64,000 nucleotides of DNA. Origin: Sanderia malayensis. Its lineage: Eukaryota > Cnidaria > Scyphozoa > Semaeostomeae > Pelagiidae. The stretch covers positions 1 to 64,000 of the forward strand of contig RQOL01000880.1 of assembly GCA_013076295.1 (NCBI GenBank), given 5' to 3'. The notes below the pieces were generated by a model. It did not search any database and had not been told where the DNA came from. It was given only the letters and a program-made list of their open reading frames with translations. This document shows, piece by piece, positions 16,593 through 64,000 of the stretch. A program made the position numbers and the translations under genes. Position 1 is the stretch's first letter. Each line of letters begins with the position of its first letter.

Positions 16593-16640
<48 letters not shown>

Positions 16641-16702
16641 TGCTATACCACTACTATTATGCTATACTACTGATACTACTATGCTATACTACTACTACTA
16701 CA
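16141..16702 (+). repeat. (TAC)n microsatellite with higher-order units
   Basis: Long TAC/ACT runs alternate with a compound unit containing TATGCTATACCACTACTATT and ATGCTATACTACTGATACTA. The compound unit recurs at least four times, so this is a higher-order array and not a simple triplet run. Long Tyr- or Thr-rich translations are artefacts. Confidence 0.95.
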
Positions 16703-19709: not shown

Positions 19710-20205
19710 TTGTTTTATTGTAATAACATTTGCCTTTGAATACAGAATACACCTTGACTAACTACGAATCTATAGTATCTGGTATAGACAAGGCAAAGAA
19801 GGCAATACTATGCTAGTCAGCAGAAAATTGCACTCTATATGAACTGCAATTTGTAATTTGCTCGCAGACAATGTTGCTATTAACGTAAGATGATTGCGAT
19901 TCGTAATATATATATACTTATATATACAATAAGCTATAATAACTGAGCAATGACAACCAAATTAACCTTCTGCATGGTTTGGCAATGCACAAACAGCAAA
20001 AAACGCTCTTTGTCGCTCGCTATCACACAGAAACTTCCCACTATGTTAACATTCTCAATTGGTTAGCAAAACAGTGACGTGGGAATGTGCATGCGTAGAT
20101 TACAAAGAGTATACACGTGTATTGATATAGTGGTACACGTGACTGCCAATGTTTTTGGGTGATAGTGTTGCAGTTGTACTAAAAACCCCTCTGTCTTTGT
20201 TTCAA
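19710..20205. other. Intergenic region between convergent genes
   Basis: Separates the PAN-domain gene (+) from the 3' end of LIN52 (-). It is AT-rich with a short TATATA tract near 19909. No ORF with recognisable homology and no clear repeat boundary. Confidence 0.5.
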
Positions 20206-22170: not shown

Positions 22171-22783
22171 TTGTCAATTGAAAATATGAAACAAAGACAC
22201 CATTCCAAAATCCAAATGCCAAAACAAACGAAGAAGGAAGAAAGAGAAAGAGATGAAATTCAAATCAACAAAGAAAGAAAAGAACAGGGTGGAGAAGACT
22301 GGGGGGCACACTTGGTTTCCCCGATTTAACATGTGCCAAAATCACGCGATGACGTCATCGATGAATGTAATGCATCATGTCGTGTTCGTGTCGTGTGGAG
22401 TGGAGTAAAACACAGCCACACCAGTCAAAACAAAACAGAGCAGAAATTTAGCAACGTTCAAAGTTCTCATCATTGTGTTTTTTAGTATTATTTCTATTAA
22501 CTAAATAGCATGTTGAAATAAAAAAAGTAAAGCTAGAGAGGAAGGCATTTAGCACCCTCCCTCCCTCCTCCCAGGTTTAAATAATTGTATACAAACTTGT
22601 GTATTATATCTGTAACATAAGAAAGTGCAAATAGTTATAATTAATAAATGCAGTTATATTTAATACAGAAGATCTAAAAACATCCCCCCCCCCAATTGTC
22701 CAATAAAATACAAATCAATATTGTTATGATATATGAGAGAATTTTGCTTATTCCCTTTTCACTTCCAGTTCATTGGCTGGTGC

Positions 22784-42500: not shown

Positions 42501-43254
42501 GGCTGATATTATTTTCGTTGTCTCATTTGTTTTCCTCTGAAAGAAAATTATTTTGTTATGGTAAAAAATAAAAAGCTATTCTTGTAACTATTCCTTCAAA
42601 GAAATGCTTTGAATTCATCTTCGAAATCTTAGAAATGTATTTAGATTTAATTTGTTTGTGTTGCCTTCCTAGAAATAAAATAATTGGAAAAAAAATTAAT
42701 AAGGAAGTCCTATAAGAGGTAATTTGTTGCAAATCCTACCATTTTAATGTCAATCCTTGGCCTTTTTCTTTCAACAAGACTTGATTTATCGTTGCATATC
42801 ATATTGTCCCCTGGAGAGAATAATTTACAACTGTTATTCGTAAGAATTATCACATATCCATCATTTTACTCGATCGAATAATTAATTCTTTAATTTAAGT
42901 TCAGTGTTCCATTGATGAATAGAAATATATATTCTCCAAAATTATTAGAGATAATTTCTAATAAAATATTCATTTTGAATTAATTAGAAAATACAACAAA
43001 TTCACACGTCCATTTCTGCTTCAATAAAGTGATTTATAGTATGTACAGGGCTGACTAGGCCAGCTGATAGTTGTCAATTAATGAAATAGTAATAGATAAA
43101 AATATACGTACTTGGTGAAGTAACACTGCTATTTTCATTGATATTTGTTGTTCTCCTTCGTCGTGGAGAAGGCATACTGAATGTTAGTCTACGAGCTTGC
43201 TTGGGCAAAGTAGCATCGTGGTCTTTATGTGGAGTGGCTTTTATTCTGGAACAC
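33525..43254 (-). CDS. FBXO11: F-box only protein 11 (SCF substrate receptor)
   Basis: Substrate-recognition subunit of an SCF (CUL1-RING) ubiquitin ligase. Nineteen exons, transcription order 43254-43112, 41404-41233, 39955-39760, 39649-39529, 39243-39137, 38986-38881, 38658-38414, 38202-38071, 37817-37732, 37426-37246, 37081-37006, 36822-36776, 36486-36401, 35964-35744, 35598-35464, 35105-35022, 34758-34650, 34169-34071, 33750-33525. From the ATG at 43175 this gives 830 aa in one frame; a further 5' exon cannot be excluded because the first exon is open upstream. The F-box is [19 protein letters not shown]. It is followed by a long right-handed beta-helix of repeats such as [20 protein letters not shown] and [20 protein letters not shown]. 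The C-terminal UBR-type zinc finger is [20 protein letters not shown], then FFCDCGAG. The tail after that (basic, Ser/Arg-rich) is unlike vertebrate FBXO11. It faces USP37 head to head across ~1.95 kb. Confidence 0.95.
33894..34043. mobile_element. MITE family B copy 2
   Basis: A 150-bp element with inverted ends TACAGTAAAATCCCGCATAT and ATATGCGGGTTTTTACTGTA, and the internal CAATAGCCTATTG hairpin, in the last FBXO11 intron. Better preserved than the copy at 11198-11349. Confidence 0.82.
34340..34506. mobile_element. MITE with TACAGTAA..CCGATAACTCGAAC ends
   Basis: A 167-bp element in an FBXO11 intron with inverted ends (TACAGTAACATCCCGATAAC, TCGAAC; GTTCGAGTTATCGGTATTTT, ACTGTA). Interior has CTCGAACC/CTCGAGCC repeats. 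It shares TACAGTA termini with family B but not the interior. Confidence 0.8.
36918..36971 (+). repeat. (ATG)n microsatellite
   Basis: About 17 ATG/GAT triplets with one ATGACG interruption, inside an FBXO11 intron. Confidence 0.95.
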
Positions 43255-45199
43255 CTGATCTGGATAGACCAAAACAACAAGATCATTTCTCGAATTTGAA
43301 AAAGTCTCCCATTGTTTTGACCAGGCCACAAGAACACACAGCAACAGCCAATCATTTCCCAATAATTATATTCCCATTGTTAGTTGACCAATCAGAGAGC
43401 GTTATTCTGCGAGCAGGCTGACCTTCGCTTGGGACCTGTCACCAAACAAAGGAAAGACTAAACGAGGCCACGAGTTAATTCTATTCTCGTCTCACGTGTC
43501 CTGCCATATGGAATTATCGCATCTTTGTTCAAAAGTATAATAAATGAATTAATGTATATATGCATAAAAATACCGTGTCACAATACCAAATACAAAGAAC
43601 GTGCTCAACATAAAGAAACTGGATATACGTCTGAGATTGAATGGAGAATAAATTGAGGGTTAATTCATTCGTTTATTCGGAATAGGATCTATAATAGAGG
43701 ATTTTCTTCCCCTGTTTCCAAATAGGGGAAGAAAGGGCAACCTTATGTTCGGTTTAATTGTAGAGAAAGACGATAATGTGGCCGATTATTCCACTGTAAT
43801 AACGATAAAGGTCAGGAATATTGGTGTGGCCATAAGTCTTACCCAAGCCCTCTCAGAAAATACAGTAAAACACTGTAGACTTTCACACAAATTCTTACCA
43901 TACCTTTCTGCATCTTCAAGCAATTTTGCCAGACAATAGGACAATACGTAGTTAATTACCACACCTGTTTGCAGTAAAAGCCGGGAAATGAACACAAAAC
44001 ACCTCGACCTCATTCTCAATCGGAGGCTTGTTGCCCTTACAAATGAGCAAGGAATGAATGAACTTGGTCAGATAAAAGATTCTCCAGGAAGGAAAAATCA
44101 CCAACCACAACGCAAATCCAGCTGGGTGCTGCATCCACACACAAACACGTGTCAATAAGCCAACAAAAAGTTTAAATGTAAATACACTGGCCGATTTTCA
44201 TATCATATTTAAGTAAGCCTTCGAAATAGGGGTTTAAATGGATTCAAAGAGTCTGCGCAACTTAAGGCAACCAACTCTCAAAGGCCCAACATGGGTTGGT
44301 TATGATTTGATACAAGAGTTTTGAGCCATTCGAAGTCCTATTTTACATGAAGTACATATAGCACACAAAATGTAATAGTTATAGTTTACTTCACTAATTA
44401 GTATACTTTCCAAAACGAAAATAAAAAGTTGAAAATACTTGATACAGCGAAACCAAGTTTCACTCTTCCAACAGTAGAACACAGAATCTATAGACTGTGC
44501 AGGAACATATCTCTAGCTTCTGGGCTTTTGCTTCATTGGCCTTTGCATACACGACGTAATGGTATTTAGAAAAAGGTGATATTGGAAACAGTGACCTCAA
44601 CATCAGTCTTAATAGACAACATCGCAATACCTTGATGGTATGGTATGCAAATGATCTGGTAGTTGCATTCCGATCAAAAAATGTTTACTTGAGCGAAAGC
44701 GTAATTTTTAAAGGAGAGGAAGGTAACCAACCAAGCCATATTATGAAAGCGACATGGAAACCAAGGATCCAGAGTGCATCAAAGGTGTGAAATTTTGATG
44801 GATGATACAAATTTTGATGTGGATGGGCTGCAAATCAATATGCCAATGCCCGTTGCATGATGAATAAAAAAGCTCATTTAACTCATTTTGTAATGAATTA
44901 TTGAAGGTCACAATATTGTCAAGGAAAAATCTGTCTTCAAAGTCACTACCTGATCTGATTTGACTCTCTGCCAGTGCAAACTTTTGCCCAAACGAAGTTT
45001 GACAATGTGGGTTTTGTCCCCTATTCTACGTCATAAGGAGGAGTAAGGTGGTCAGCATGCGCAGCGGCATTATACCCACCACACTAACTAATTAATTCCC
45101 GCCATTTTTAGCAAGGCAATTAGGCCCAAGAATTGATGATATACCACAGCAATTTTTGATTTGGAGAATTATCAAGGTAGTTATATTTATAAAGTGGAA
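43255..45199. other. Head-to-head intergenic region FBXO11/USP37
   Basis: About 1.95 kb that should contain both promoters. Near 45025-45070 lies TACGTCATAAGGAGGAGTAA then GTGGTCAGCATGCGCAGCGG, the same module seen in the tandem array at 58050-58410, so it is a dispersed repeat. No other supported feature. Confidence 0.55.
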
Positions 45200-48100
45200 A
45201 TGGCAACGGTAGTTTCTCCTTTATCTGGTGGAGTTTTTCAACTTTCTGGGAAGGTAAAGTTTACAAGCTTTCGGAACCCAACGACCTCTTCTCTCCAACC
45301 TGGAGTCCTTAAATTGGAGCTCACGAACCCCGACAAATGGTTCATTTCTGTTGACTGTCGTGGAACTAATAGGCTAAGCATGCGACAAACTAAAAAGTTC
45401 AAGGTAAACCGTTTTAGATGTTAGAAATTAAGTATTATTTGTTTATTACCTTTGCTTAAACATGGCCTGACAGATATGGGGCAGAATGAAGACAAACAAA
45501 ACATTCTGTTCTGTCGTCAATTATAAATCATTTTAAATCATGCATCGTGTGATATGTTTTATTTTCCTCAGTTGAATGATAATATAAAGCAGATTATGGC
45601 CAGTGAAAGGAATCTAACATTAGTTCTAGATGATGGCTATCAGGTGTGTTTTGGACAAAATAATATTTTCACAGTGTGCAGCTTAATATCAGCACATTAT
45701 ATGCCATGCATAACTTTTTATAAATTGGTATGGAAGGGCTGATTTGCAATATTTGCTGATTTGTGTTCTAGATTATTGCAAAAGATTGTCAATCTAAAGA
45801 TGTGAAGATCTTTCAACAATGTCTTGAAAAAATCAAACTTGGCAGACTTTCCAAAGGTAATATGTTTTAGAATCACGAGAGAATGACAAGATTTGCTTAT
45901 CAGATGCGTTGTGTACTTAATTCATGTGTACCATAAATTATTGTTTACAGCTGCATCTACAAAGCTAATCTCAAGTGCTGTTTCTGAAGAGGACATTGAT
46001 CCATTTGGTATTTTCAATGATATTAAAGAGGTATGATTCCTTGAGAATCCTTAAAAAATGTAGTACACAACAAATTCATTGTTTATATATGCAGTTAAAG
46101 TTTGTTATCTCAAGTCCCCAAAGGAATTTAAGTTTGTTTGAGATAGCAAATGTTTGAAATAATGCATGTTCTAACTATACTAAACCAAAGCAAGAGGAAT
46201 TTGAAATTTGCTTGAGACAGCAAGTATTTGAGAAAGGTGGCATTCAAGATGGCAAGTTTCCGCTGTATATGTCATTAGTGTATTGTAGGTTGCTTCCTCA
46301 GTAGCTTCTGCATAAATTGCTAAACGTAATGTATCATCATAATTAAATTCAGAAAATATTTTTGGTTTTAGAATATTGAAATGAAAGACAAGAAGAACTC
46401 TCCTCAAAAATCTACAAATCCTTTGAGTAAGATTGTATTTCGTGTTTGTTTTTTAGACTCACTGTAAAATCATTGCAAGCTTACCAAAATCAATTTTGTT
46501 TGCAGCCAGACCACCGAATCTTATGTATAAATCCTCATCACTAACAAGCCCATTTGCTTCAAGGTGGGTATCGATCTTGCAAAAGTTTGTATTTATCCCA
46601 GAATTTCTGTCATATAAAAGCTGCTTGCCATGCCTGAATTTTTTGGGAGGATTTTCAAACCCTTCTTACCCCTCTTCTCAGTCGTTTTTTACATCTGACT
46701 TTTCTTTTGTGCTGTAAATGAAGTTGCAAAATTCCAAAAAGCCACCCTGAGCTCAACACCACTTCACAGAGGCTCCAATTATTCACTTCTCTTTCTAACC
46801 ACTCCCAAAAGAAAGCAGCTGTCTTTCACTTCAGATGCACCAGTGACCAAGACTCTGAGTTCGAAGCTGTTGAGCTCATCTTCAAGGAATACAGCAAGCT
46901 CTAAGCTGTTCACCCACTCCCCAACATCTGGTAAACCTGCCTTCACTTTCAGAAGTCAACCATCTGACTCAAATTCAAAGCTGGTTGCAAGCAAGCCACT
47001 GTCAGAGGTAGCAGATGAGAGTCCAAAAAGCCAAATTGCTTTTACAGGGTTTGTTGAATTTGCTACGTTTATTACAATAATGCTGTACTGATGCAAGATC
47101 TACAGTGCAGTGGAACTTGGTGCTACATTTGTCCCAGTGGTGTCCACATAATGGAGACCATTGGAACAAATGTTCATTGTAGAGAGGTATTCGTTGTATC
47201 GAAGTTGTATTTGCAAAGAGATACAATTAATTGTTGTACATACAATTGTCCAGAGTTGTTTGTTGTATAGAGTTGTCTGTTTATGGAAGCTCCTCTGTAA
47301 ACCAATAACAATGTCATTATTGTATACTTATTACATAATAAGGTACAATGTATATGCAGTAATGCTGTATAATACAATTAAAGATGTGCAACTACATATA
47401 ATTAAAATCCTTGTAGGTTTACGAACTTGGGAAATACCTGTTACATGAATGCTGTGCTGCAGTGTCTTTTGGGAGTGAAAACATTCAGTCAAGATCTTGA
47501 TGATCGGGAAATTTTACGAAATGTTGAAGAAACAAGCTTATACCGGTAAGAGAAGCCTTCTATTTATTTTGCAGATTTCTTATCATATGTTGGATAGTTA
47601 AACATCAATATTGATAAAAAACTATACTATTCACTGTTCACTAATCTTATTATATGATCTAGCTAAAAGCTGCTTCACTCAATAACTCTTTGTGCGCTAA
47701 AATGGTCCCCACATAGAACACCATTTCAACTAAGCCATTATCGTGCCATGCATGTGAACTCTTGCCTTTTCATTTATAATATATTATAATTTATTACCCT
47801 TTGTGTTTTTCAGATCGTTGTACAGGCTTTTGGATGCCCAGGGCATGGAAAAGAAATACCTACTACGGAATATCAAGCGGGCAATCTCAAGACAGGCAAC
47901 GCATTTCTCTGGATACATGCAGCATGTATGTTACCATGATTTGTACCACATTGCCTCTTCTCTGTTATGTCCAGCTTTGCCCTTAATATAATATACTATT
48001 TTGTAATTATATGTTTTTCCGATCTGCTGGGCGTTCTATCCTTGCAGTAAAACTTGACCTGTCTATCCTTTAATTAATAACTTCCAATTTGTGCATTTTT

Positions 48101-51100
48101 CATTGCCGATTTATTTCAGGATGCACACGAATTTCTTGGCCAATGTTTGGACCAGTTGAAAATTGAGGCTGTTGGAGAAAGCAAAAGCGGCCAGGAAACC
48201 GTATGCTCAATATATTGTTATGATTTCTAACCTTGAGTACCATCGTTCAATCCAATACTCGACTCTACATTAGTTTACGAATTATGAAGACGCGAGGCTC
48301 TCTGTCTCGTTGAGTTTGGTTTGACCATAGTGAATTCTTTTTTGAATTTTGCAGGAAGCACAGTCTTGCTTTACTTTGCAATTTTGCTTTATTTAGGAAA
48401 CACATTCTTCGTGTCCTGTCGGCCGCAATTTCGAGTTTGTGATAAGTCACATTATCGAATGCAAAAAGTAAGTATCTTTGTCATGGGAATTCGACATTTT
48501 CATGCATATTTACTGCCACACGATCGCTTCTTTGATTTCCACCGTTCTTCAATTGCACTCTTCTTTTTTACAGTTGTGGTAATACAATAACAAAGGACGA
48601 AAACTTTAACGATGTTTCCCTCGACATTCCTGATTTGTGAGATATATTTCACTCTTTTCTTTTCATTGCTGATGCTCATGTCTACCCGTCTACATTGCCA
48701 AATCAGCTTTGTAGTACATCCCATTCGTTAAGCTTACTACACGAGTCTCTGAACACCGTAGAACCGACCAGTAATCACCCTTGTTGCTGCTGCGACAACA
48801 GGGACCTGTGCCTGTCAGTATACGAGTTTGTCTATATATACTTTAATTTCTTCGTTTTTTTTCAGAGATGAAAATGTGAATCCAGAGGAGAGGCATTTAC
48901 AGCAGCTGCTCGAAGATTATTTTAAAGTGAGTCATGAAAGCCAATGTCCTTTCCAGTCAGTTGCAATTTAGTCACCCGATTTTCCTTTATCGGTTTACAA
49001 CCGTGCACCAATAAGCCGCGGAGTGCTCGTGAATACCCTCGTGTTTTTCTGTTCTGCGATTGTCGTAATTAGAACAAAAGCTTATCATGCCACGAGTGCG
49101 ACGTTTTGAGAGATACTTCTCTCATGGTGCAATATCGTCTTCTTTTTCAGAACGAAAGCGTTAACTATACCTGCGAGGCATGCAGTTGCAAAAGCGCAAG
49201 ACTTATCCATCATTTTCAAAAGCTTCCAAGGTAATTTTTCACCCTGTCTTTTCAGTATGCAATTTCATTTATTTCGTGCATTACCATCAACAAATACAGT
49301 TCATTTTCAGGACTTGTTTCTCTATTTCTTCCTGCTGCTAGCTCTCTTTCTCTTTCCATCTCTTGTCTCGATTGCTGTGCGCGTTCCTACTCTCTTTTGC
49401 TTTTGTTGCGGTCCCTCGTTTTGTCCCTCGTTTTGTCCCTAAATTTCCTATGCTCTTTCCCCTGCCATATCTTACCTTTTCTTTTTCTGCCTGCTACTTC
49501 TTTTCCTATTACACTCCTTGCGCTCTTTCTCCTTTTATTTTGCTTTCCTCTTCGACAATCTATTTACTTTATATTTTCCAGAGTTATCATCCTTCACTTG
49601 AAAAGGTACTCCATCAAATGTAAAAAAAAGCTAGATACCGTCGATGTTCCGAAGGTTTTAAACCTAGGTGAGACTACGACACATTTTCTTCAACTTTAGC
49701 CAGGCCGAGCAACACGTTGACAAACCCACTGCGTTGTATCGATTGATTTGACTGATTAATTTGATTTCGTGATTAATCGATTTGCTAATTAATTGATTGA
49801 TTCATTGCTCTATTTGCAGGTGTATTATGTACAGAAAAGACCGGAGATCCTGCAGTGTTTGAACAGAGGGCAGTCAGGTACTTTCGGAAAACAACTTCTT
49901 ACCTTTTCTTAGCTTTTTTGCTTTTACTAAGCTGTAAAATGTTCACCTCCTCCATCCTATTTATTATACTGTTGTTGTCTTCTAACCCCTAAAAGATCGA
50001 TTTTTGAAGCACCCTAAATGCTCTATCAGTTCTGGGGGCTTATTTAATTTTCGAGGTTTCCGTGGGGGGGGGCTTAATAGAGAGGTGGGCTTAATAGAGA
50101 GGTGGGCTTAATAGAGTCTTTACGGTAAACGTGGTCCACAATTTAAAATGTATTCTCTAAAATGTTTGCCCTTTGTTTTTCTCAGTTCTTCCAAGAGAAT
50201 TCTGTCAAACGAAACAGCAGATGACATCGAAGATTTTCAATCGAGTTTGAAAGTTAGAAGAAAGCTGAGTTTAACTTCCAAGCCCCAAATAAGGTAGGAT
50301 TACTTCTTCATGAATCTGTTTGTTGTTTTATGGATCGCACTGCTAAAAATAGCCGGCATTATCCCTTAATAAAAGCATTACTCAAACTATATCAACTCAT
50401 GGTTTTAGTTACTCTGGCCGAGGAAACTATTTACCCAGGACGGTTTATCGATTTTGCGTGGAGATGATTTTTTGTAGCTGGGTTCCTTCCCTTTCCAAAA
50501 GAACTCAAATTCCAATTTATTTTCCAGCAAAGCTGATGAAACGGATAGATTCAGTGAGGACATGGAGAAAGCAAAGAAGCTATCGCTGGAGAATATGAAT
50601 CTGGAATCGATGACAGAAGAAGAGCAATTTGAGTTGGCTTTGATGGAGAGTGTAAAAACAAACGATATTCAGCCGTGGAATGATGATGATTTAATTGATT
50701 TACCCCCTGACTTGTTTGACGAAAGCCCCTCAACGCAGAAGGGCAGACAAAGAGAAGATGCAACTATGACGGATGGGGAATCAAATTTCACTTCTGTGCG
50801 AACTAAGAAAAACACAGACCAGCCAAGTGAGAAGAATGAATTTGAATCTGTTAAGTTGGTAGAAAGGGATGTATCGTTGCGAAAAGACAGTGATTCGAAA
50901 CAGTCACGAGTTTTGATAGTGGTATGTCTTTTGTTATTGCATAAATTGCATCGTATACTTAAACTTATTAACACAGATAGATAAAGGCGAAAGACAAAGG
51001 ATTTGGGAGTTAAACTTTTGTTTTTAGCAATAGAAGGTATTTGTCAAGTATTGTAACCGAAGTACCTTGTGCTGCAATGCCTGAAGCAACAGAAGTACAT

Positions 51101-51925
51101 TGTGTGAATTTCTTTTTTCTTAACGTTCTCAGAAAATTTTTTGTTGAATTTCAGGATAGCGACGAAGATCAGTTGTCTAAAGCATTAGAGATAAGCCTGC
51201 AAGGTAGACATAATTCGAATATTTTTTTAGCTTCTTTTCCCTTGTAGTCTCAGGCGTTACTGTTTATGAAAGAAGTTAATTTCATGTTGATCGAATTCTG
51301 TTGTTTTCAAAATTAATACATCTTATTTTAGAATTTAACCAGTTCTCTGCCTCAAAAGATGCAAATTCTCAAAGAAAACGTAAACTAGAGGAAAATAGAT
51401 CAGATAATGTAAAGAAAAGTAGACCGGCGGTATATAACACAAACGTTAAATATATTAATTCCTTTTTTATTTCGTTTAATTTGTTTTACTTTTTGGCAGA
51501 TTGGATTTATTTTTTTCAGACCTTGCAAAATACAGATGTATCTCCACCTAAAAACTATAAACTCATTGGCATAATTAGTCATATTGGAAACAGTTTGGAA
51601 TCGGGTCATTATATCTCCGATGTGTTTGACTTCAAAGAACAAATCTGGAAAAGTTATAATGATAGTGCTGTGAAGAAGGTACAATCATTTATAACCAGCT
51701 ATTAACTATGTATTTGTGCATGGCCTGTTGGTCTAGTGGTATGATTCTCGCTTAGGGTGCGAGAGGTCCCGGGTTCAACTCCCGGACAGGCCCAATTTTT
51801 CTGCGTCCTTTTCAATTCTACCGAATTACCTTTATTTATATTTTTATACTTTTAAGGTCACAGAGTACGAAGTTAGATATGGCCGAAAAAAATCTGCATA
51901 TATATTTTTTTATATTCATGAGTAA
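45200..51925 (+). CDS. USP37: Ubiquitin carboxyl-terminal hydrolase 37
   Basis: Deubiquitinase; in vertebrates it opposes APC/C-CDH1 on cyclin A and acts in S phase. Twenty-two exons: 45200-45403, 45572-45643, 45772-45856, 45951-46030, 46372-46426, 46506-46563, 46770-47048, 47417-47545, 47814-47925, 48120-48200, 48397-48467, 48574-48636, 48866-48926, 49151-49230, 49582-49667, 49820-49877, 50186-50293, 50528-50921, 51155-51203, 51332-51429, 51520-51678, 51857-51925. Total 816 aa, shorter than human (979). The acceptor of exon 7 is the least certain. An N-terminal PH-like domain (LNDNIKQIM) precedes the catalytic core: Cys box FTNLGNTCYMNAVLQCL, DAHEFLGQCLDQL, zinc cysteines (CPVG, ECKNCG, YTCEACSC), VIILHLKRYS. 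Ubiquitin-interacting-motif-like helices lie in the insert (EEQFELALMES; EDQLSKALEISLQ). The His box is GNSLESGHYISDVFD, and the last exon ends AYIFFYIHE. Start chosen as the first in-frame ATG. Confidence 0.94.
51722..51793 (+). tRNA. tRNA-Pro (anticodon AGG)
   Basis: A 72-nt intronless cloverleaf. The acceptor stem GGCCTGT pairs with ACAGGCC plus discriminator C. Box A is TGGTCTAGTGG, the anticodon arm CTCGC-TTAGGGT-GCGAG has anticodon AGG, and box B is GGTTCAACTCC. A TTTTT polymerase-III terminator follows within 10 bp. CCA is not encoded, as expected for a eukaryote. It sits inside the last intron of USP37, on the same strand. Confidence 0.97.
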
Positions 51926-52509
51926 GATTTATTTCATTGATTATATATTTTTAGTTTCATTTTATTTGTTTTCCGGTCTTATTTTCTGATCTTTTTTCCT
52001 TTCGCAGGGATTGTCTCAAAGCTTTCAAATAGGATGATGTTAATATCAGTGAAACATTCAACACTATGCGTATATATATTTTTACCATTTACAGTTTTCT
52101 GATAACAGTAGCATATCATAATTTAACATAGAAGTTACTGTAATAGGAACTATTAAAGTTTTGATCTTGAACCATTTTTTGAAGATCATGCTTGATGAAT
52201 ATTTTCTCCAAGAAAACATTAAGCAAACGTTTTATTTTTTCCATTTTGAAAAGAAGACAAAACTAATATCATCTTTCATTTTGTAGATATGTAAACCGAC
52301 AAATAGATATTGCAATACAGGCGTAGTAGCTATGTGAACAAAATGATAATATTTGTTTATAAATTTCACATTTAAACTAATTTCTTCGATGTTAACTCTT
52401 GTATATTATTTGGTTAATGCAAGAGTGTCTGTATTTCTTGTTGTCAACTAAAGTCCTTTACAAGTAGTTTTTTCACCAGAAATACACCAAGGTTCTACAT
52501 TTAAAGCAG
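51926..52509. other. 3' intergenic spacer between convergent USP37 and COPZ
   Basis: 584 bp of AT-rich sequence expected to hold both 3' UTRs. No ORF, repeat boundary or RNA gene seen. Confidence 0.6.
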
Positions 52510-53421
52510 TTACTTCAATAGTGACCACTTAAGTTGGTCTTTTGCTGTTTGAATGACCTGAAAAATGAAAGGTAACATTGCATATGCAAAGCAAAGTGTA
52601 TATCAGTGAAGAGGGTACAAATGTTTTTAGGGATAGAGGAACATGGTTGTTACCTGTGCAACTGTTTGCTCTGATAATGGCACTTCAACATCCATCTATC
52701 AAATGAAAAGATAAAATACAGGTGGAGTTTTGTATCAAATAAAAAGTTAAAATACAGGTGGAGTTTTGTCATTATTGTATACGTCTTTCTCTAGAGACAA
52801 CATTCTTTGGGGGAGGAGGGGTATGAAGGGTGCATGCAAAAGTCTGCACCCTCATTCCACTTTGTATCTTAGAAATCCAAAATCTTTTTACAGATACCTT
52901 CATTGCCACCCTTTGAACAATGCTATTTGAGTCAGCCTCAAGTATGACACCACCATCAACAAGTTCGTCAATTGCCAAGTAAATGGCATCCAAATGATCC
53001 ATAAGAAACCGCTTCTCAACATTCTTCTTCAGCATTTGACTAACAGCATCGTACAATGCATTCAACACACTAGCCAAGATTAACTGAAAAATAATGCAGT
53101 AATTATTGCATGCATGTATGGTCAACTGTAGATGTTTTATTTTTAAGAGTAATATTAAAGTCGTAATAACAATAAAAGCTAGTCATGTCATGAACAGGAG
53201 TGTGTGTATATGAGTTTGACAATTTGAGAAAGATACTTCTTTCATTGATGACAATCACTGCGCAGAAAGACACTGACATATTCACGGTAATACTGAAGTG
53301 TGTGCTAATAGAAAATATATTTACACATACTTCATTTTCATGTGAGGATCCCATGACATAAAATACAAATCAACATTGCTTCTGTAGACCACAGTGAGAC
53401 CCTCTAGCATGATTATTTCAG
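52510..53421 (-). CDS. COPZ1: Coatomer subunit zeta (COPI), 3' half; 5' exons missing
   Basis: Small zeta subunit of the COPI coat, which forms vesicles for Golgi-to-ER transport. Four exons: 53421-53331, 53083-52898, 52695-52654, 52557-52510 (stop TAA). Conserved blocks: EGLTVVYRSNVDLYF, MGSSHENE, QMLKKNVEKR, AIDELVDGGVILEAD, VPLSEQTVAQV, and the terminal AKDQLKWSLLK. The first ~60 residues of the family are absent: the gene runs towards the N gap at 53510 and no further exon is seen on either side. In the first visible exon one T is missing from a T-run (A-run 53360-53363 on +), shifting frame between DLYF and VMGSSHENE. Only ~150 bp from the contig end, this is most likely a consensus error. 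Whether it is COPZ1 or COPZ2 cannot be decided. Confidence 0.9.
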
Positions 53422-53509
53422 CTGAAAATGAATTAAAAACCATAAAACATAATTTAGAAAAAAAACTGAATAGTTTTTCTTGGATTTAATACAAATATGT
53501 TGCTGTGAA

Positions 53510-53609
53510 NNNNNNNNNNNNNNNNNNNNNNNNNNNNNNNNNNNNNNNNNNNNNNNNNNNNNNNNNNNNNNNNNNNNNNNNNNNNNNNNNNNNNNNNNNN
53601 NNNNNNNNN
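53510..53609. other. Assembly gap (100 N)
   Basis: Exactly 100 N, the usual placeholder for a gap of unknown size. On the left COPZ is cut off; on the right a cysteine-rich gene is cut off. Neither gene is completed by the other side. Confidence 1.
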
Positions 53610-54089
53610 AAGGATTGCCCAGACATGAACTGCACTGCACATTCATGCTATCCAACTTGCCAGGAAGATAATTGCAAACTTAGCTGTACAGGCAAAGGTG
53701 GTGATCCACGGAATCCAACAGATTGCTATCCAAGATGCCTTGGTAAGAATTGCACAATTCACTGTAAGTCGCTTTACTGTGAAGCAGCTTGTAATCAAGG
53801 AGGGTGCGACATCAAATTCAGTAAGGTAACCTTTGGAACTGTATCCTGCAAGGAGAACTGCACTTTAACATGCGCCAAAGGCAAGAGCTGTCGGTTTATT
53901 CGGGCATGCCCCAACTGTAAAACATTTGTTGTTGATGACCCATTTCCACCTACCAATAACACATTACCACCTACCAATAGCACATTACCAGTTCGACCTA
54001 ACAATGCTGGTAAAGTGCATTTTCTTCTTACCACCCATGTCTTGTTTTCAAGCAGCTTCATTTCTGCTTTTATTTTCTTGCTTCTTTAA
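53610..54089 (+). CDS. Cysteine-rich GPI-anchor-type protein, copy 1 (5' truncated by gap)
   Basis: The open frame begins at the gap edge with KDCPDMNCTAHSCYP and ends at TAA 54087-54089. Regular paired cysteines (CQEDNCKLSC, CLGKNCTIHC, CEAACNQGGC, CKENCTLTCAKGKSC) suggest a disulfide-rich extracellular domain. After the Cys-rich part comes a spacer with two PPTNNT/PPTNST glycosylatable repeats that copy 2 lacks. The hydrophobic C-terminus (FLLTTHVLFSSSFISAFIFL) has no basic tail, as in GPI-anchor signals. The first exon with signal peptide must lie in or beyond the gap. Family not recognised. Paralogue of 56417-57254. Confidence 0.82.
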   Translation, partial: KDCPDMNCTAHSCYPTCQEDNCKLSCTGKGGDPRNPTDCYPRCLGKNCTIHCKSLYCEAACNQGGCDIKFSKVTFGTVSCKENCTLTCAKGKSCRFIRACPNCKTFVVDDPFPPTNNTLPPTNSTLPVRPNNAGKVHFLLTTHVLFSSSFISAFIFLLL

Positions 54090-54672
54090 TAATGAAGTGT
54101 CCTCATTTTTATCTTTCGTTTTTTCTTGTTAAGCTTTTTATTTAAATTGATTGTGAACTGCAAGTGATAGTTTATCAGTGATTTATGTTTGTTAGATTTG
54201 TGAGATTATAAAGATGTTCTATATACAAATATGAAAGATGTTGATTGTCTGATTGCTGTTTTTGTCTTCTATGTATTGTATTCTATGGGCGAAGGAGCAT
54301 ATAAGCATATTTGATGTCATGCGCATCTTTCCCATGCAGTGGGTGTTGTTAAGTATAGTTGAATTGGTTGTAGTTATGCATTGTCATAAACTTTAAATAA
54401 CTTCCATGTACGAAGTATTAACCATTATCAGCCAATCCTTCCTCACCGGCACCCATACTTCGTAGGGGTAGGGACCGCTTTCATCCCTCCCGCCTTTAAC
54501 ACAGCATGATATTGGGCGCTGCGGTGGTGGTGTCCTACACCCCCGTAGCACTCCCTTGATTGTGCTTTTTTACACAGTAGCATTGCGAGTGGACCCATTG
54601 TATTTTATTGACTTATTGTCACATAATTGAATGCAGTTCTTTGTTATTTTCTTCCAGGAGTTGAACATTGGC

Positions 54673-55065
54673 AAACGTTTTTTTTATAAGAAACCGGTTT
54701 ATAAGAAACCTAGATCTAGACGCCCTAAAATTTAAGAAACTTTTAGAACTACAAGGAAATATTTAAGAAACATTAGAAATTTCGGAAACACGTTTTTCCT
54801 TTACGGATTCAACAAATATCAACTACAGTACAGTAAGTATGTTTTATGTGCTACGCATAACATTGTCGGCTCCACATGACGATTTTTCGCATTGTCGATT
54901 TTTCTTTGTTATGATACTAATATTTTGCCACATCCACGTTTTTTTCTTCGTTTTTACTGCAACTTTTTTCATTAAATTAAGAAACTTTTAGAACTAAAAT
55001 GTGGCTAAAAATTAAGAAACTTTTACTACAAGACCTTGAGCCAGGTTCCTTATAAAAAACGTGTA
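54673..55065. mobile_element. MITE family C copy 2
   Basis: Same ends and interior as 18766-19056 (ACGTTTTTTTTATAAGAAAC; CCAGGTTCCTTATAAAAAAC, GTGT), about 100 bp longer through an internal segment around 54800-54900. Confidence 0.82.
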
Positions 55066-55109
55066 ACGTTTCTGCAATCACTTTTGGGTTTACCTTGAAC
55101 TTTGTTGAT

Positions 55110-55700
55110 ATACCGTATTTCCTCTATTAAGCGCCCGGGCGCTTATTAAATATTTCGCAAAATTGGGCGGGCGCTTATTAGAGGGGGGCGCTTATTAGAG
55201 GGGGGCGGTTATTTCTTAGTCCTAAAATTTTAAAATTTAACATCTTCAAAAACAAAACAATAATCTTATATTAACAATAATAGTATATAACAATAATCAA
55301 TAATAACAAAGTTCCGAATGTTATTTATTGACATACGTTAAAAAATGCTATGTTAGCATTTTTTAGAAGAAATGAAGAAGCGACAGCATGGTAAAGCCGT
55401 ACACATGGACATTGAATTGACAAACATTAAAAATGGATATTTTCTTTAAGATATAATGACTAACTTTGGTCTTAAACTACTTGCTTATGTTGCCATTGAT
55501 AAAAGAAAGGAATTGATGTCTATTCACATGTTTCTACGCTATTATTTGAACCAAACAGTGAAAATGTAAGAATTCTATTAACCGCCCTGGGCGGTTAATA
55601 GAGGGGGGCGCTTATTTCATACTTTTTGATTTTAGGGTGGGCGCTTATTGGAGGGGGGCGGTTAATAGAGGGTGGGCGCTTAATAGAGGAAATACGGTAT
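55110..55700. mobile_element. ~590-bp MITE with ATACCGTATTTCCTCTATTA ends
   Basis: The left end ATACCGTATTTCCTCTATTA, AGCGCCC matches the reverse complement of the right end (GGGCGCTTAATAGAGGAAAT, ACGGTAT). GGGGGGCGCTTATTAGAG-type repeats sit inside both arms around an AT-rich middle. Related degenerate pieces occur near 9575-9640, 13145-13560 and 50035-50130. Confidence 0.82.
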
Positions 55701-56416
55701 CTTTTCACTTGTTGTTTATCCAATTCTTTTTATCTTGGTTAATTTGTCAGAGGTAATATTTTGAGTTATTCAAATGGAATTGCCAATTCTCTTTCTCCCT
55801 TTATATTCGTCCTTTATATTCTCTTTCTTACTATTAATGCATGGTTTCTAATGTATGACGTCAAGAGTCTTGAACAAGTCACCCAACTTCACTTCACCCC
55901 ACCCACCAAGGTAAGGGAAAATCACTTGGGTTGGGTCGGTTGGTTCCAAAGAATTGTTGGTTCCTTCTTCCGAAGTTTCAGTTTCATCTCCTCCTAGATA
56001 AATAAGTACATATATATATGTACTTACTTGGGTATATATACATGAAGCAATGTTCATAAAGGTAAGAAGAGTGTTTTACGAATAGTAGCTGAATTATTAC
56101 TACTTTTATATTATCGAAGAAACCTTGTGTGTGATGCAGAAAAACCACGCCCATCAAGGCAAGAAGCAGATTGTTGAACTTTTCTGTTGCTATCTTATGT
56201 CGTTATTTGTTGAATAATAGATATGATTTAAGTCATATGCTTTATTCTGCAATCAGAAGGTATCGTTCTTAATACACAAGCAAGTTACAAACCGAAAGTC
56301 ACTCTTCGAAATAAATTGTCCTAAAAAAGTAGGCTAGGCCTATTCCTATTAATGCCTAACCTTTGTCATTTGCATTTCGTGGAGTCATGAAATATTTTTT
56401 TTCAATTCCTCAGATC

Positions 56417-57254
56417 ATGGAGTTACAAATTGTTGTTTACTTGTTTGTTTTGATTGGGATGTCCTTAGACGGTGTCAGTTGCGAAATTAAAAATTGTACA
56501 TCTTCACCTTGTGACCTCACAACATGTCAAAATACAGCTGCAACATGCAAACAATTTTGTTCAGCAAGTCCTTGCAAAACGTCTTGCCAGTCAACTGCTG
56601 GCTGTGAAGCCAGTTGTTTATCGGGTAATTGTAATAAAATGGCATGTGATGTCCCAATCAAAGACAAAAATACGGTAAGCTCTGGTTAATAACTAAATAA
56701 CTAATCTAACTAAATTGATATTGAAATCTGAAACTGACTGATAAAGCTTTAAATGTTCAGGAGATGTCATACTTCTGTTTCATAATCTGCAGCCTTCGAC
56801 TTCGATCTGTTCTCTGACATGTAAAAAGGATTGCCCAGACATGAGCTGCACAGCACATTTATGCTATCCAAATTGCCAGGAAGATAATTGCAAACTTAGC
56901 TGTACAGGCAAAGGTGGTGATCCACAGCGTCCGCCACAGTGCTATCCAAAATGCTTTGGTAAGAATTGCACAATTCACTGTAAGTCGCCTCACTGCGAAG
57001 CACGATGTGACCAAGGAGGGTGTGATGTCAAATTCAGCAAGGTAACCTCTGGGACTTTATCCTGCAAGGAGAACTGCACTTTAACATGTGCCAAAGGCAA
57101 GCAATGTGGGTTTACTCAAGTATGCCCCAACTGTAAAAAATTTGTTGTTGACGATCCATTTCCACCCAATGCTGGTAAAATGCATTTTCTTCTTACCACC
57201 CACGTCTTGTTTTCAAGCAGCCTTGTTTCTGCTTTTATTTTCTTGCTTCTTTAA
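56417..57254 (+). CDS. Cysteine-rich GPI-anchor-type protein, copy 2 (complete)
   Basis: Two exons, 56417-56674 and 56793-57254, give 239 aa. The ATG at 56417 was chosen because MELQIVVYLFVLIGMSLDGV is a good signal peptide and a TTCCTCAG acceptor lies just upstream; a farther in-frame ATG would bury the signal. Cysteine pairs continue throughout (CTSSPCDLTTC, CKQFCSASPCKTSC, CEASCLSGNC, CSLTCKKDC, CYPKCFGKNCTIHC, CKENCTLTC). The C-terminus is hydrophobic after NAGK, fitting a GPI signal. Probably a cell-surface protein; function unknown, no named family recognised. It is the tandem paralogue of 53610-54089 and shows what the truncated copy lacks. Confidence 0.85.
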
Positions 57255-57922
57255 TAATGAAGTGTCCTCATTTTTATCTTTCGTTTTTTCTTGTTAAGCT
57301 TTTTATTTAAATTGATTGTGAACTGCAAGTGATAGTTTATCAGTAATTTATGTTTGTTTGTTTTGTGAGATTATAAAGATGTTCTATATGCAAATATGAA
57401 AGATGTTGATTGCCTGATTGCTGTCTTTGTATTCTATGTATTGTATTCTATGGGTGAAGGAGCATATCAGCATATATTTGATGTCATGCGCATCTTTCCC
57501 ATGCAGTGGGTGTTCGCAAGTATAGTTGAAATGGTTATAGGTATGCATTTTTTTGATTATTGTAGCTTTGATTGGTTGCATCGTAAAAATTTTTATTTAC
57601 GTTTTTCTGTGAAAAAGTTATTATTGTTAGGGTAATAAAAAAGTACAAAATATAAACATTTCCTCATGGATAGAAATAAAATAATAAATAGAATGGTGAA
57701 GGTAAAAAAGTAAAAGAATTATAGTTTATTTTAAAGGCTAAGAACATATACCCTGCATATGGACAAAGAACCAAAGCAATTCAGATGACTAGAGAGCTCG
57801 GCAGGTCGGTGGCTATCGATTGATATATAATTTACCCTATTTGGGTGTGGTCCATAAACTGCAAATCCGATGGATTTCAGGGGCTCCGCCATGATGCTCG
57901 AGAGTTAGACTTCATCTAATAT

Positions 57923-58030
57923 GTACTCGCAAGAACTCATTGTGGTGCAACACCCAAAAGTCTAGGGTGATGCTAAGGGTGGGAATCCAAGCATACAAAC
58001 AAGGGTGTGTGAGCACAAATTTTTATTTAT
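57923..58030 (+). mobile_element. SINE-like element, partial copy
   Basis: Shares ACTCGCAAGA(A/G)CTC, CAACACC, AGTCTAGGGTGATGCTAA and GGTGGGAATCCAAGC with the 3' part of 58411-58660. Confidence 0.65.
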
Positions 58031-58049
58031 TTTTTGTTATCTTTTACCA

Positions 58050-58410
58050 CATATATATAGGCACTGCGCAGGAGTATATATGACGTGACGCTGGTGGATG
58101 TATTGGTCTTAGGATTAGTGTTAGCGTTAGGGTAAAGGTTACGTCATGCGGAGGAGAAAAGTTGTCAGTATACGCAGCAGCATATATATTGGTACTGCGC
58201 AGGAGCACATGTGACGTGACGCTGATGGATGTATTGGTTTTTGGGTCAGGGTTAGCGTTAGGGTAAGGGTTACGTCACGCAGACGAGAAAGGTGGTCAGC
58301 ATGCGCAGTAGCATATGTATAGGTACTGCGCAGGAGTATATATGACGGGACGCTGGTTGATGCATTGGCCTTAGGGTTAGGGTTAGCGTTAGGGTAAGGG
58401 TTACGTCATG
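58050..58410 (+). repeat. Three ~130-bp tandem units containing (T)TAGGG-like motifs
   Basis: Units start at about 58058, 58190 and 58320 with GG(C/T)ACTGCGCAGGAG and carry TGACG(T/G)GACGCTGGTGGATG, GTTAGCGTTAGGGTAA, GGTTACGTCA(T/C)GC and GTCAG(T/C)ATGCGCAG. The third contains TTAGGGTTAGGGTTAGCGTT, an interstitial telomere-like stretch. Confidence 0.88.
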
Positions 58411-58660
58411 CGGAGGAGAAATATGGGCTTCGGCGTGGCAAGCCGAAGGTCGTGGGCTCGAGTCCCACCCAGTCACTGGCCCGGTCAATATGTTGCTGTG
58501 GCAGTACTTCATGTTGTTCGCGCTGGTGTTAGAGACAGCCTTTGGGCAAATAAAAAGACTTACTCGCAAGAGCTCAAGGCAGGGCAACACCGAAGAGTCT
58601 AGGGTGATGCTAAAGGTGGGAATCCAAGCGTACATACAAAGGTGTGTGAGCGGCATTTTT
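58411..58660 (+). mobile_element. tRNA-derived SINE-like element
   Basis: The head resembles a tRNA: GGCTTCGGCGTGGCAAGCCG hairpin followed by a box-B-like GGCTCGAGTCCCACCC. A unique body follows, ending GTGTGTGAGCGGCATTTTT. It is not a functional tRNA because no complete cloverleaf can be drawn. Confidence 0.65.
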
Positions 58661-59520
58661 TAACATTTTTTTCTCTATTTTATTTGTTTGTAAATTCTTG
58701 TAGCCTTGATTGATTGCTTTGAAAAAGTTGATAATTTGAATTATTTTCAAAATTTTTTTTGTTAATCTTTTACTTCTAGTAATAGAACAGTGCACGTGAG
58801 AGCAACATCTTCTCGCAGATGGAAATAGGAAGCCATAGTTTTGTTTCGGAACATTTGGATTTATACATAGGGATTCCATATACATGGGAATGGGTGCTAA
58901 AATTACTTTTCGGGACTCAGCATTTCTTTCTATACAAGGACCAACACCAATGGACTTATTTCTTCGTTTCGCGCGTGCGTATTTTCATATTCTCTGCAGA
59001 TACAAATTCGGATTTAATTTCATTCCGCTGCGTTATTGTTGTATTGAATAAAATCAGTTGAATAGAGTGTTATCGAGAAATGCCCAGCATTGAATTATTT
59101 TCGCCATTCCAGACATTGCAAACTGTGAGAGTTGTTTGCTTATTGTTATGAAAACGGAGAGTTGCTTTGCTTGTTCCCCGTCCAGGTTTGATCCTTAATT
59201 CTTGTCCGGTCTTGTGCTACGAGAAGGTAAGAAGTCTTGCGAAACGATCACATAATCTTTGGGAATCTGGAGATCCCTTGCGATGTTCTCTGACAACGAG
59301 AAAATACATGTTTATTTGGTGACGCTGAAGTGGGAAATATTCACAAATTGAAATTTACCACCCTCGTGTAACCCCCGCACTCTCGTGAACAATGCGTAAT
59401 TAAGCTTGGTTGCTATTTTCGTGTCATCAACCCAGTGTTTATAAAATACACAGCTTCAATCACCAAGCATCAGCAGAACAGACAGTAAAATAGTTTCTGT
59501 CTCCAAGGATTTGATCAATT

Positions 59521-61115
59521 ATGCCTTATCGACGTTTTGGAAAACAACAATCAACTGAAGAGAACTTATCACTATTTTCAAGGTATGCATGAAAATGCAT
59601 TTTATTTCGTTTATTTTTGCTCTGCCTGTATAGTCCCCACGAGAATTTTTGTTGAGATGGAAATATGTATGTGTGGTGTTTGTGATAGCTGATGCGATGC
59701 GGGTCATTATGGGTCAACTTTTACTTCTTATTTGTATTTGATTTCTTGTGTAACTTTTTCACATGTTACACAGGCATATCTGACATATTACACAATTTTG
59801 TGAAATACGTTTTGATCCAATTGGCCATTTGCCCCATTAAAATCTGTTGACGGGGAAACATGTGTCATTTTGTGCAAAAATAAAAATTATCATAAAAATT
59901 ACACGTTTCTTCATAACAACTCATAAGAAACTATATATGATAGACACCCCAAGAAACTTTTAGAATTACAAGGAAATGATTGACAACTTTACAAATTTCT
60001 TCAGTAGCTTTTGCAAGAAACTTGTCTCCTTTGTGATGTTTATTTCACAGCGCAAACGAGACTGTCTTTGATGGATAGAGCACTTGGCATTTCCGGGGGT
60101 TTGACAATGAACATAAAGATCGTGCCTCTGGGACATGAAAAATGGGTGCATAATCTTGCAAAATTCTTGAATTTTAAATGAGTACGCATTATATAAATGA
60201 GTTCATCCTGTAAAAACGTGTTTTGTGTGGCAAGAAGGTGGTCCGTTGCAAACGGGATCATCAGGTAGATAAGCGATTTACCCGAGTTACCCCCACTTAC
60301 GAAAACATGTGATCGCAAAATGCAGGTAGTTGATTGGCGTATTATATTTATGATTGTGATTGCCGATTGTGCAGTTCTGCAAAGGTTTTGAGCGGCTTTT
60401 TTGAAGTTAAAAATGGCTTCCCGAAGGATAATTAGTCCAGGCGCCCTACTCCATTGGACGGGGGTGGGAATCAAGGTTTAGTTAATTATCTTTTGCTGGA
60501 GGGGAGCTATGTAAGTCGAAAGAAAGTTTTGGCAAATATTTCTGGGGACGAAATGAAAACAATATATCATGGCATGAAAATATAATGATTTATTGCTATT
60601 ATAATTAATTTATCAATATTTGCACTTGAACTTAGCTCCAAATATTTGCATTTGTCTTGATGCTCAATGGAGGGAGGGAGGGGCGAATAAGGGGGGAAGG
60701 AGGGGCGAATATGATGGGAAGGACGGGCGAAGGAGAAGGGAAGGTAGATTTCGTGATTTGATTAATGTTTGTTTTTTTCAGAGCACCAAAGACATGTCCT
60801 GATGTGGAGGCTTGTTTGTCAAGAATAAAAACACATACGGGTGTACTGGGTGTTATAGTAGTGAACAAAGATGACATTCCCGTCAAGACAACCCTGGACA
60901 ATCAGACAACGCAATTGTACACAGAACATTGCAGACAACTGTCACAACTCGCTCGCCACACCGTCAGGGACGTGGACCCGACAAACGATCTGACGTTCTT
61001 GAGAATTCGCAGCAAAAAGAACGAAATTGTTATCGCCCCAGACCAGGGGTACACGATCATTACTATCCAAGCGGGGCCACGTGATGCTCCTCACACCGAT
61101 ACAAGAGGTAAATAA
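59521..61115 (+). CDS. DYNLRB: Dynein light chain, roadblock type
   Basis: Non-catalytic dynein light chain that binds the intermediate chain. Two exons, 59521-59582 and 60782-61115, in phase, 131 aa. The roadblock domain is clear: IKTHTGVLGVIVVNKDDIPV, KTTLDNQTT, HTVRDVDPTNDLTFLRIRSK, KNEIVIAPDQGYTIITIQ. Vertebrate DYNLRB1 is 96 aa. The extra length is about 24 N-terminal residues (MPYRRFGKQQSTEENLSLFS) and a short polar C-terminus (GPRDAPHTDTRGK). The first exon is supported by phase and a good donor (AG|GTATGC) but not by homology, so the start is less sure than the domain. Which DYNLRB paralogue it corresponds to cannot be told. Confidence 0.88.
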
Positions 61116-61607
61116 CTCGGACCATTGTATGCTACTCTTACTTGACCATGCCGAGGCCAAGTTATTATATATATCCCCTGATATCTGGAACAAATTTCGA
61201 TTTCTCTTAAGAGTTTGAGATGGCGGATGTCTATTGTACCACATATATAAACACTATATATCACATATACACGTATATATCAATTTACTATAAACACCAT
61301 TTTATAAATCAATAATTTTAAATTCGTACAATTAATAATGCATTTTAATATTTGAAATAACATCTCCTATTTAACTGTTTTTTTATTATTCGCACTCTTC
61401 TTTTGGCCGGATCTTCAACCCTGGAACACTAGGAACACATGGGACTTGGAGGTGACGTTCGTACGCATGCAAAAAGTCGTACCTCTACACTCTGACCCCG
61501 CCCACCCCAGTTCCTCCCCACTTTTAACTTTTGATATAATGCACTGCACCTTTCCCTTCTTCCTTTGGCGATCTGCATCTGTGATGACCTGACCGCGAGT
61601 TTGCAAG

Positions 61608-63043
61608 ATGGCGAGCGCCGTGGTAGTTGCAGGCAACGTTCCTTTCTTCGACCTGTGCATGGTTATGCAAAAAATAAACGATACACAAGGCACAGAAAAG
61701 AAAAAAGGTATCTTCAGGAAATTTCTGGAACGTTGGAGGCAGGCCTACTCAAAGCTGCATGGAGAAAACAGGGTCGAGGTAGGTGGTTGGTATAAGGACA
61801 TGTTTGATTGAAAGTGAAAATGTTCTTGTTTATCCATTCAGTCTGGAGCCAATAATTCTTCCAAATGAAGCTGAATTAATTTTAATTGAACATTATCACC
61901 ATTAATTGTCTGTTACCAATTTCAGGATGACACATTTTTTCCTGCAATGAGAATGTTCTTGCCAGCTTTGGATAAAGACAGACCATCTTATGGAATGAAA
62001 GAGGTTTGGTTTTAGTATTGTATGATCAATTTTTTAATAGCTTTTGTTGTGTTTACCTGATTACAGATCTGAAGTTCAGGTTGTGAACCCCTTCACTGCG
62101 CTGCATAGGTATAATATCTGTACACGAGACCAGAGAAATCACCATAAAAGGGGGTCCAAATCTGAGTTCTAGTAAGCAAGCAAGCAGTATTTATTTGTTA
62201 ACGCAGGCTGAGGGCTCAATCAGCCATATAGTTAATGTTTGCTCATGGCTTGTGCCCTTTGAATGATGTTCCAGAACGAATGTACTGTGCATTCATTTAT
62301 CAACCTCAGAAGGGTAGACGGTTGAGTTGGCTAACAGCTTGTAGTTTTTGACTCTGACCATTTGTTGATCTCAACCTATGAATGAGAGCCTTCAGGGATG
62401 CAAGATCTAACACATTTACCACTTGGTTACACTGGTAGGGCTCATTTGCCAGTTTAGGAACTATGCACAATGATCATTGTAGGTCAACTGCGAGAGTACA
62501 ATATCAATTTAAATTCCTCTTTTGTTCTAATTTCTGTAGGTTGTTCTTGCAAAATATTACATAGACGCTCTGGGTATTGCAAAGGAGAGTGCAGATGCGA
62601 AAAAACTTTTGAACTACAAGGCACCTGCTTCAGCAAGACGAGTGGGTATTACACGAATTGTTGTTTGATAAGAATTTTTAAAATTTGTTTAGACAATTTT
62701 TGTAAACTTTTTGGGTTGATTAATTTCTTTTCTGCTAGGATGCTGGTGATTTTGCAGCAGTTGCTTATGTAATACTCAAAGACCGATGCCAAACAGAAAA
62801 AGGATCGTAAGTTTTTCATTTTTCATTCATTTAAGATGTGATCTAATGTAAGTGTGTTTACGTACATTTGATCCAAAATATTCGACGGTACTTTGCAGAA
62901 GATATTTTCTTCTATTTCTCAGCCTGACAATAGAAATGTGAATTCAACACTTGACATGATGGCTCAAGCAAATATGGAGAAGAACGAATGGTGCCAAACA
63001 AGAGATTCACAAACTCATCAGGAACATGTCACCAATTGAACAA
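61608..63043 (+). CDS. LIG4: DNA ligase IV, exons 1-5 (5' part of gene; exon 5 copy frameshifted)
   Basis: N-terminal DNA-binding region of DNA ligase IV. Exons: 61608-61778 (ATG, residues MASAVVVAGNVPFFDLCMVM, as in vertebrate LIG4 PFFDLC), 61926-62003 (FFPAMRMFLPALDKDRPSYG), 62540-62641 (AKYYIDALGI, LLNYKAP), 62739-62806 (DAGDFAAVAYVILKDRC) and 62923-63043. The last is a second copy of the exon at 56-179 but is 121 nt instead of 124. One deletion after the codons for LTIE makes a premature stop, so this copy cannot be translated as it stands. With the left copy of exon 5 the joined coding sequence is 2,739 nt (912 aa plus stop), against 911 aa in human. Sequence after 63043 is the same intron and transposon as at the left end. 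The gene starts about 490 bp downstream of the roadblock dynein gene, same strand. Confidence 0.93.
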
Positions 63044-64000
63044 GTAAGCAATGTCACTTTATTCAACCTTATTCCTCTAAACAATTGTTTAATAATAAGG
63101 GTAGTAGTGTAGTAATATACATGGAGCTTCTGTGTACCACCCCCTCGATGAAGGAGGCTGTGGGTGGGTGTAAGTGCATGGGAACGAGGTTGGCGGGTGG
63201 GACGAGAACTGCGAGGGCGGGAGCACGTGCGGGTTACGTGCAGGGACACGCGGGTACGGGGTCGGGAAAAGGTGGGCGCTATGGTGTAAGCGTCGCCTCG
63301 TTTTTTGTCCATACTTCCATTAGAGAACGGTGTGTTGGCCGATGCGCTTAGAAGAGGAAATTTGCGTCAAGGTGATGCAGAGAAAAAAGAAACACCGACA
63401 TTGTGATATCAGCGTGTGTTGCGATAATACCAAAATGCAAATGCTAACATGAGTAAAAAATTATAAAAAGTACACAGGTTCGTATAGGTATGTATATATA
63501 TATATATGAAAAACAGCGCAGCAAAAAAATAGAAACAAGTTCGTGCGTTTTAAACAGCGGTGCCGTTTTTGTTGTTGTCGATGTTATGACGAGGCACGTG
63601 CATTGTTGTGTCGAAGTGGTACACTTTCAATAAATTCACTTTCAATAAATTCCAATTTTATTTACATATATAATTTATTAAGACTCTATATTTAAACTTT
63701 TACCAAAAGAAAAAGGACAGGTTTCGACAACAATAGCAAAAAATTTAAACAGTTCTGCAAGCCCAAAGTTTAAAGTCACTCAGAGGTCGGTGCGAGAAAA
63801 ATTGGAAAAGATGATACAAAACTTCAGGCAGAAAGATGCCTACGAGCGAAGAGCAAGCGGTATTAACCCAGAGAATGACGAAATAAATCAAGCCCTCGCT
63901 GAAATAGCGGATAGAATGGCTGAATTTGAAAAACTGTGGTCGGAGGAAAAAGAGCAGGCAAATGAAAAAGCCGAGCTTGAAGCCTCTCAAGCTGAAGAAG
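62870..64000 (+). other. Second copy of window bases 1-1156 (terminal self-overlap)
   Basis: These 1,131 bases repeat bases 1-1156 in the same orientation: the LIG4 intron end, exon 5, the same intron, the same transposon insertion junction (TAAGGGT then AGTAGTG) and the element interior up to the coiled-coil ORF. There is a net loss of 25 bases, nearly all before about 63490. From about 63490 to 64000 the two copies are almost identical. This pattern fits a poorly polished contig end overlapping another contig, or a recent tandem duplication of ~62.87 kb. Confidence 0.95.
63110..64000. mobile_element. Second copy of the LIG4-intron TIR transposon (left 0.9 kb only)
   Basis: Same element and same insertion point as 241-5513, cut by the window end within the coiled-coil ORF (63822 onward, same [16 protein letters not shown] start). 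Its first ~380 bp carry small deletions relative to the left copy; the remainder is nearly identical. Confidence 0.9.

Follow-up and report, generated by a model that had tools for sequence, protein, structure and literature searches.

The DNA ligase 4 (LIG4) of animals is recognizable by its domain set: an N-terminal domain, an adenylation domain, an OB C-terminal domain, two BRCTs and the DNA_ligase_IV motif. All of these are found in the composite LIG4 that can be read from the jellyfish Sanderia malayensis, which has 29 coding exons here and is 52% identical, over 94% of the query, to the protein of Rhopilema esculentum, the best species-named relative among the 120 matches listed of 399 LIG4 relatives. 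The copy X protein, defined below, shows nothing unusual, and the ligase it encodes looks ordinary from its sequence.

A second likeness is to unmerged haplotype overlap and misordering in assemblies combining long reads with Hi-C data, shared features being overlapping contigs of similar sequence, gaps of 100 N, contig edges exact to the base and a duplicated contig end that is identical. Assembly errors of this general kind (misjoins, false duplications) are already widely discussed in the literature, and HiRise inserts 100-N gaps. The present locus differs in that crosswise pairing appears to split one gene copy across two scaffolds, leaving LIG4 incomplete on the main one. The assembly account published for S. 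malayensis lists FALCON, FALCON_unzip, Pilon and TrimDup labelling of redundant or heterozygous sequence, and, as the last step, HiRise, run on Chicago and Hi-C data to break putative misjoins and make joins; the same account gives 970 scaffolds, 184,371,355 bases and a scaffold N50 of 4,676,287 (PMC7305137).

Two copies of LIG4 on one small scaffold

The window, the whole stretch of DNA analysed here, covers positions 1 to 64,000 of C834, a scaffold of 83,173 bp in a genome of 918 contigs and 184,004,477 bases. Because 100 N stand at 53510-53609, C834 is made of two contigs. Its features are as follows (positions are those of C834 unless C815 is named):

1..53509, no strand: contig 1 of C834, beginning in LIG4 intron 4, with copy X exons 5-29 and the downstream region
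56..14707, + strand: LIG4 exons 5-29, copy X, 25 exons, open
2259..5110, no strand: 20-bp minisatellite in LIG4 intron 5, 143 units in copy X; 216 in copy Y, past the window edge
16125..53509, no strand: stretch shared with contig M on scaffold C815 (4538674 down to 4503997), 99.3-100% by block, no N inside
53510..53609, no strand: 100-N scaffolding gap, probable site of the wrong join, separating the disordered LIG4 parts
53610..64000, on to 83173, no strand: contig 2 of C834, with the LIG4 upstream region and 29 of 29 exons (copy Y)
61608-61778, 61926-62003, 62540-62641 and 62739-62806, + strand: LIG4 exons 1-4, copy Y, splice model
62870..63471, + strand: low-quality stretch in copy Y, 25 bases fewer than at 1-627, its onset being the homologue of C834:1
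62923..63043, + strand: copy Y exon 5, with its frame lost: three bases fewer, at separate places, within the low-quality stretch

The earlier note, made from the window alone, described right-hand exons 1-4 (61608-62806) and left-hand exons 5-29, all on the + strand, as parts of one gene in reversed order. The arrangement is as it said, and its join splices cleanly (28 of 28 introns GT-AG, no internal stops). The joined frame of 2,739 nt and 912 aa was not reproduced: the present model, obtained by exact splicing against the public protein P0001 with the N- and C-terminal parts treated apart, has 2,718 nt and 905 aa. Intron 4 of this model bridges both contigs of C834. Nor do the parts make up a single gene copy, since exons 1-4 belong to copy Y and exons 5-29 to copy X. 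Inspection to the right of 64000, which the note had advised, finds copy Y exons 5-29 continuing there to 81654, and the gene looks cut at the right because the window edge merely interrupts copy Y. The proposed period of ~62.87 kb crosses an N gap, and is hence physically meaningless.

Copy Y thus has all 29 exons on contig 2 (61608-81654), with exons 5-29 at 62923-81654, mostly past the window edge, and 62870-64000 repeats the window from position 1 onward. Copies X and Y are 97-98.5% identical outside the minisatellite; the aligned blocks give 98.5% over 5.5 kb, 96.9% over 3.5 kb and 94.7% over a 5.1-kb block that includes the minisatellite. Judged by these alignments, the repeat at the ends of C834 is far beyond chance. 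Aligned over 2,175 nt, exons 6-29 show 25 mismatches and no gaps between the copies, the 24 changed codons comprising 13 synonymous and 11 amino-acid-changing ones. Intron 5 also holds a fold-back element (871-2013) whose 506-bp arms, 871-1376 and 1508-2013, run in opposite directions at 94.5% identity; the arms contain two mutually similar open frames, one of 145 aa and one of 180 aa, for which a Pfam search gave no match at E 0.01, and the right copy has the element too.

The N-terminal 181 aa of the model match PDB chains of DNA ligase 4 (seven distinct sequences, best E 3.4e-46), and the 905-aa composite contains PF04675, PF01068, PF04679, PF11411 and BRCT, the last as PF00533 in two stretches. 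Six ligase matches were found in the genome; besides those followed here, three are on C613 and one on C479, and these are presumably other ATP ligases.

Several other elements lie upstream of LIG4 on contig 2. One, of ~590 bp (55111-55701), is dispersed in at least 33 places at 95-100% identity, and its short opposite-strand end matches suggest inverted ends of ~28 bp, as in a MITE-like element. Cysteine-rich open frames at 53610-57514 and C815:4548597-4595077 are apparently a tandem gene family; the frame at 56841-57254 has no Pfam match. A tandem unit of 131 bp at 58050-58421 includes TTAGGG-like stretches and is interstitial telomere-like; further copies are at 4545-4548 kb of C815.

Base-exact contig edges on the main scaffold

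Independent sequence with the expected exon order is present on C815, a 5.76-Mb scaffold whose relevant pieces lie on the minus strand. Here homologues of C834 53.6-62.87 kb, mostly at 88-94% identity and including LIG4 exons 1-4, are followed by a gap of 100 N (4538675-4538774) and then by the homologue of 16487-53509, collinear and within a single contig, M. Exons 1-4 run from 4540077 to 4538839, just before the gap, with four mismatches and no gaps; spliced to exons 5-29 from C834:56-14707 they give 905 aa with no stops. Exons 5-29 themselves are absent from C815 between 4538839 and 4538657.

The contig edges on the two scaffolds adjoin base for base. At the first pair of edges, the last base of C815 before its gap corresponds to C834:62869 and C834:1 corresponds to 62870; at the second, C834:83173 corresponds to 16124 and the first C815 base after the gap to 16125. 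The four pieces can therefore be written as two contigs: X, consisting of the upstream side of C815 ending at 4538775 plus C834:1-53509, and Y, consisting of C834:53610-83173 plus C815 from 4538674 down to 4503997. Each would contain 29 of 29 LIG4 exons, and the 100-N gaps join the pieces crosswise.

The right-hand part of Y, called M, matches contig 1 of C834 at 99.3% (6 mismatches in 8.8 kb), 99.97% (1 in 2.8 kb), 99.5% (50 in 17 kb) and 100% by block; the last block, of 5,010 bp, is identical, and the two share their end base. A stretch of 3.4 kb in contig 1 (28112-31498) is absent from M, and 1.1 kb of M (C815:4528840-4529915) is absent from contig 1; both are candidate heterozygous insertions. 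Nearby, 31596-32084 encodes part of a 7-TM receptor of the rhodopsin family (PF00001, E 5.3e-11). A third copy of 32557-53509 is carried by the next contig on C815, K (4482971-4503896), which is 99.68% identical to contig 1 (10 mismatches in 21 kb). M and K differ by 32 mismatches in 16 kb, so K is closer to contig 1. A second 100-N gap (C815:4503897-4503996) separates M and K, which overlap by ~21 kb at 99.5-99.9%; on this comparison the main scaffold contains one more unmerged overlap.

One defect of copy Y begins at the first pair of edges. Between 62870-63471 and 1-627 there are 25 bases missing from the former, none from the latter and 23 mismatches, as against 1, 1 and 6 in the following 1,423 columns, and the former stretch looks like unpolished sequence. 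Exon 5 of copy Y is frame-broken because three of the 25 missing bases fall in it. The low quality in Y sets in exactly at the base at which C815 breaks off and C834 begins. Scaffolder breaks alone do not explain why the cut in X and the low-quality onset in Y should coincide at one base, and we infer that a read boundary or a graph boundary is common to both at this base (62870 and its homologue C834:1).

Alleles, paralogues and other readings of the locus

LIG4 is not a permuted gene in this genome. The reading we prefer, with a probability of roughly 0.9, is an assembly artefact: a single LIG4 locus in a heterozygous jellyfish gave two overlapping contigs, one per haplotype, which were paired crosswise and misordered on C834. 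X and Y would then be alleles. The scaffolder would have cut X inside LIG4 intron 4 and would have cut Y immediately ahead of a TAC repeat that lies downstream of the gene. C815 would then have received the left of X and the right of Y as a pair, and both off-cuts would have ended up on C834 with their real order swapped. Exons 5-29 would be missing from C815 at its gap because of this crosswise re-pairing. The earlier note had favoured scaffolding in the wrong order, and that part of its proposal stands (an N gap lies between the parts, C815 keeps the order, and the edges are base-exact), but two gene copies are involved rather than one.

Some observations count against an artefact. The copies diverge unevenly along the region: upstream, each 500 bp shows 2-10%, the 1.4 kb that follow 63472 show 0.4% and the gene ~1.5%, and downstream there are the mismatch counts given above for 8.8, 2.8 and 17 kb. 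Two alleles would account for two copies of 32557-53509, yet K carries a third; since K is nearer to contig 1 than M is, two haplotypes plus one redundant contig would explain the three copies, and the mismatch counts are as expected if K and contig 1 were one haplotype and M the other. The genome analysed is slightly smaller than the published assembly, which counts a little against an artefact as well.

The strongest rival is a real tandem or segmental duplication, in which each haploid genome has two LIG4 paralogues ~1.5% apart and C834 is copy A (exons 5-29) followed by copy B (all exons, perhaps decaying). Substitutions in exons 6-29 are clean, minisatellite lengths differ (143 and 216 units), and a second set of exons 1-4 does exist, on C815; this was one of two signs by which the earlier note would have recognized a duplication. 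At C834:75704-75705, before LIG4 exon 13, copy Y (B) has TG where copy X has AG. The TG may be a splice-site variant of an allele, a sequence error or a mark of a decaying paralogue, and it therefore lowers confidence in an artefact and raises that in a duplication. The defects of copy Y, together with amino-acid changes in 11 of the 24 altered codons, could likewise belong to a decaying second gene, to an allele or to sequence errors.

In a duplication, the sequence downstream of copy A would nevertheless have to lead into that upstream of copy B, and the sole link between them is the N gap on C834; no gap-free junction of this kind was found in the sequence read, and K, which continues without a gap 7,970 bp beyond the homologue of 53509, leads elsewhere, with no C834 match in that stretch at E 1e-5. 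The C815 matches upstream of the LIG4 5' end belong to the upstream gene cluster (4548-4595 kb), and no downstream sequence is seen there among the matches listed (queries 50000-62000 and 5200-25100; best 39 of 3235 and 38 of 3212 candidates). Silence in such genome searches means little because only the best candidates were scored: a search with 33600-53500 returned dispersed repeats only, despite the near-identical copies on C815, and the genome-wide queries covered the window on either side of 25101-33599. Nor is a duplication necessary for the crosswise base-exact edges. We consider it improbable, and alleles are favoured over paralogues. Its more specific form, a duplicated block of ~60 kb with two LIG4 copies per haploid genome, one of them decaying (exon 5, the AG before exon 13), on which the assembler failed for that reason, is if anything a little less probable.

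Two further explanations fare much worse. A circular extrachromosomal DNA of ~63-67 kb, opened in LIG4 intron 4, would account for C834 ends that overlap by ~16-20 kb in the same direction, like a circle read past its start; these ends are 1.5-3% apart outside the minisatellite and differ by 73 minisatellite units, closure would pass through an N gap, and parts of the supposed circle have neighbours on C815, all of which makes a circle very unlikely. True structural heterozygosity, with one haplotype lacking LIG4 exons 5-29, as C815 does, and the other carrying a rearranged copy, is scarcely credible: the supposed deletion is seen in no sequence because its place is the 100-N gap, and the missing part sits on C834, beginning at the very next base.

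A shortened public protein and its consequences

The assembly artefact favoured here has left a trace outside the genome sequence. In the EukProt protein P0001 (736 aa), residues 13-736 correspond exactly to exons 6-29 of the left copy, X, and exons 1-5 are absent; the first 12 residues differ, and match 5442-5477 in LIG4 intron 5. PF04675 is represented in P0001 by its last part only, at 22.6 bits and below the cut-off, compared with 135.4 bits in the composite. By this comparison P0001 lacks the first fifth of the LIG4 protein. As it is the left copy without exons 1-5, the assembly error has reached a public protein set.

A literature search found no paper joining Sanderia malayensis and DNA ligase. 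What results here is a correction to a public genome rather than new biology: on the main scaffold LIG4 is incomplete, with only exons 1-4 found, beside the gap. The crosswise base-exact pairing offers a clear pattern by which similar errors can be detected. Surveys of end-joining repair genes in jellyfish could otherwise wrongly score LIG4 as truncated.
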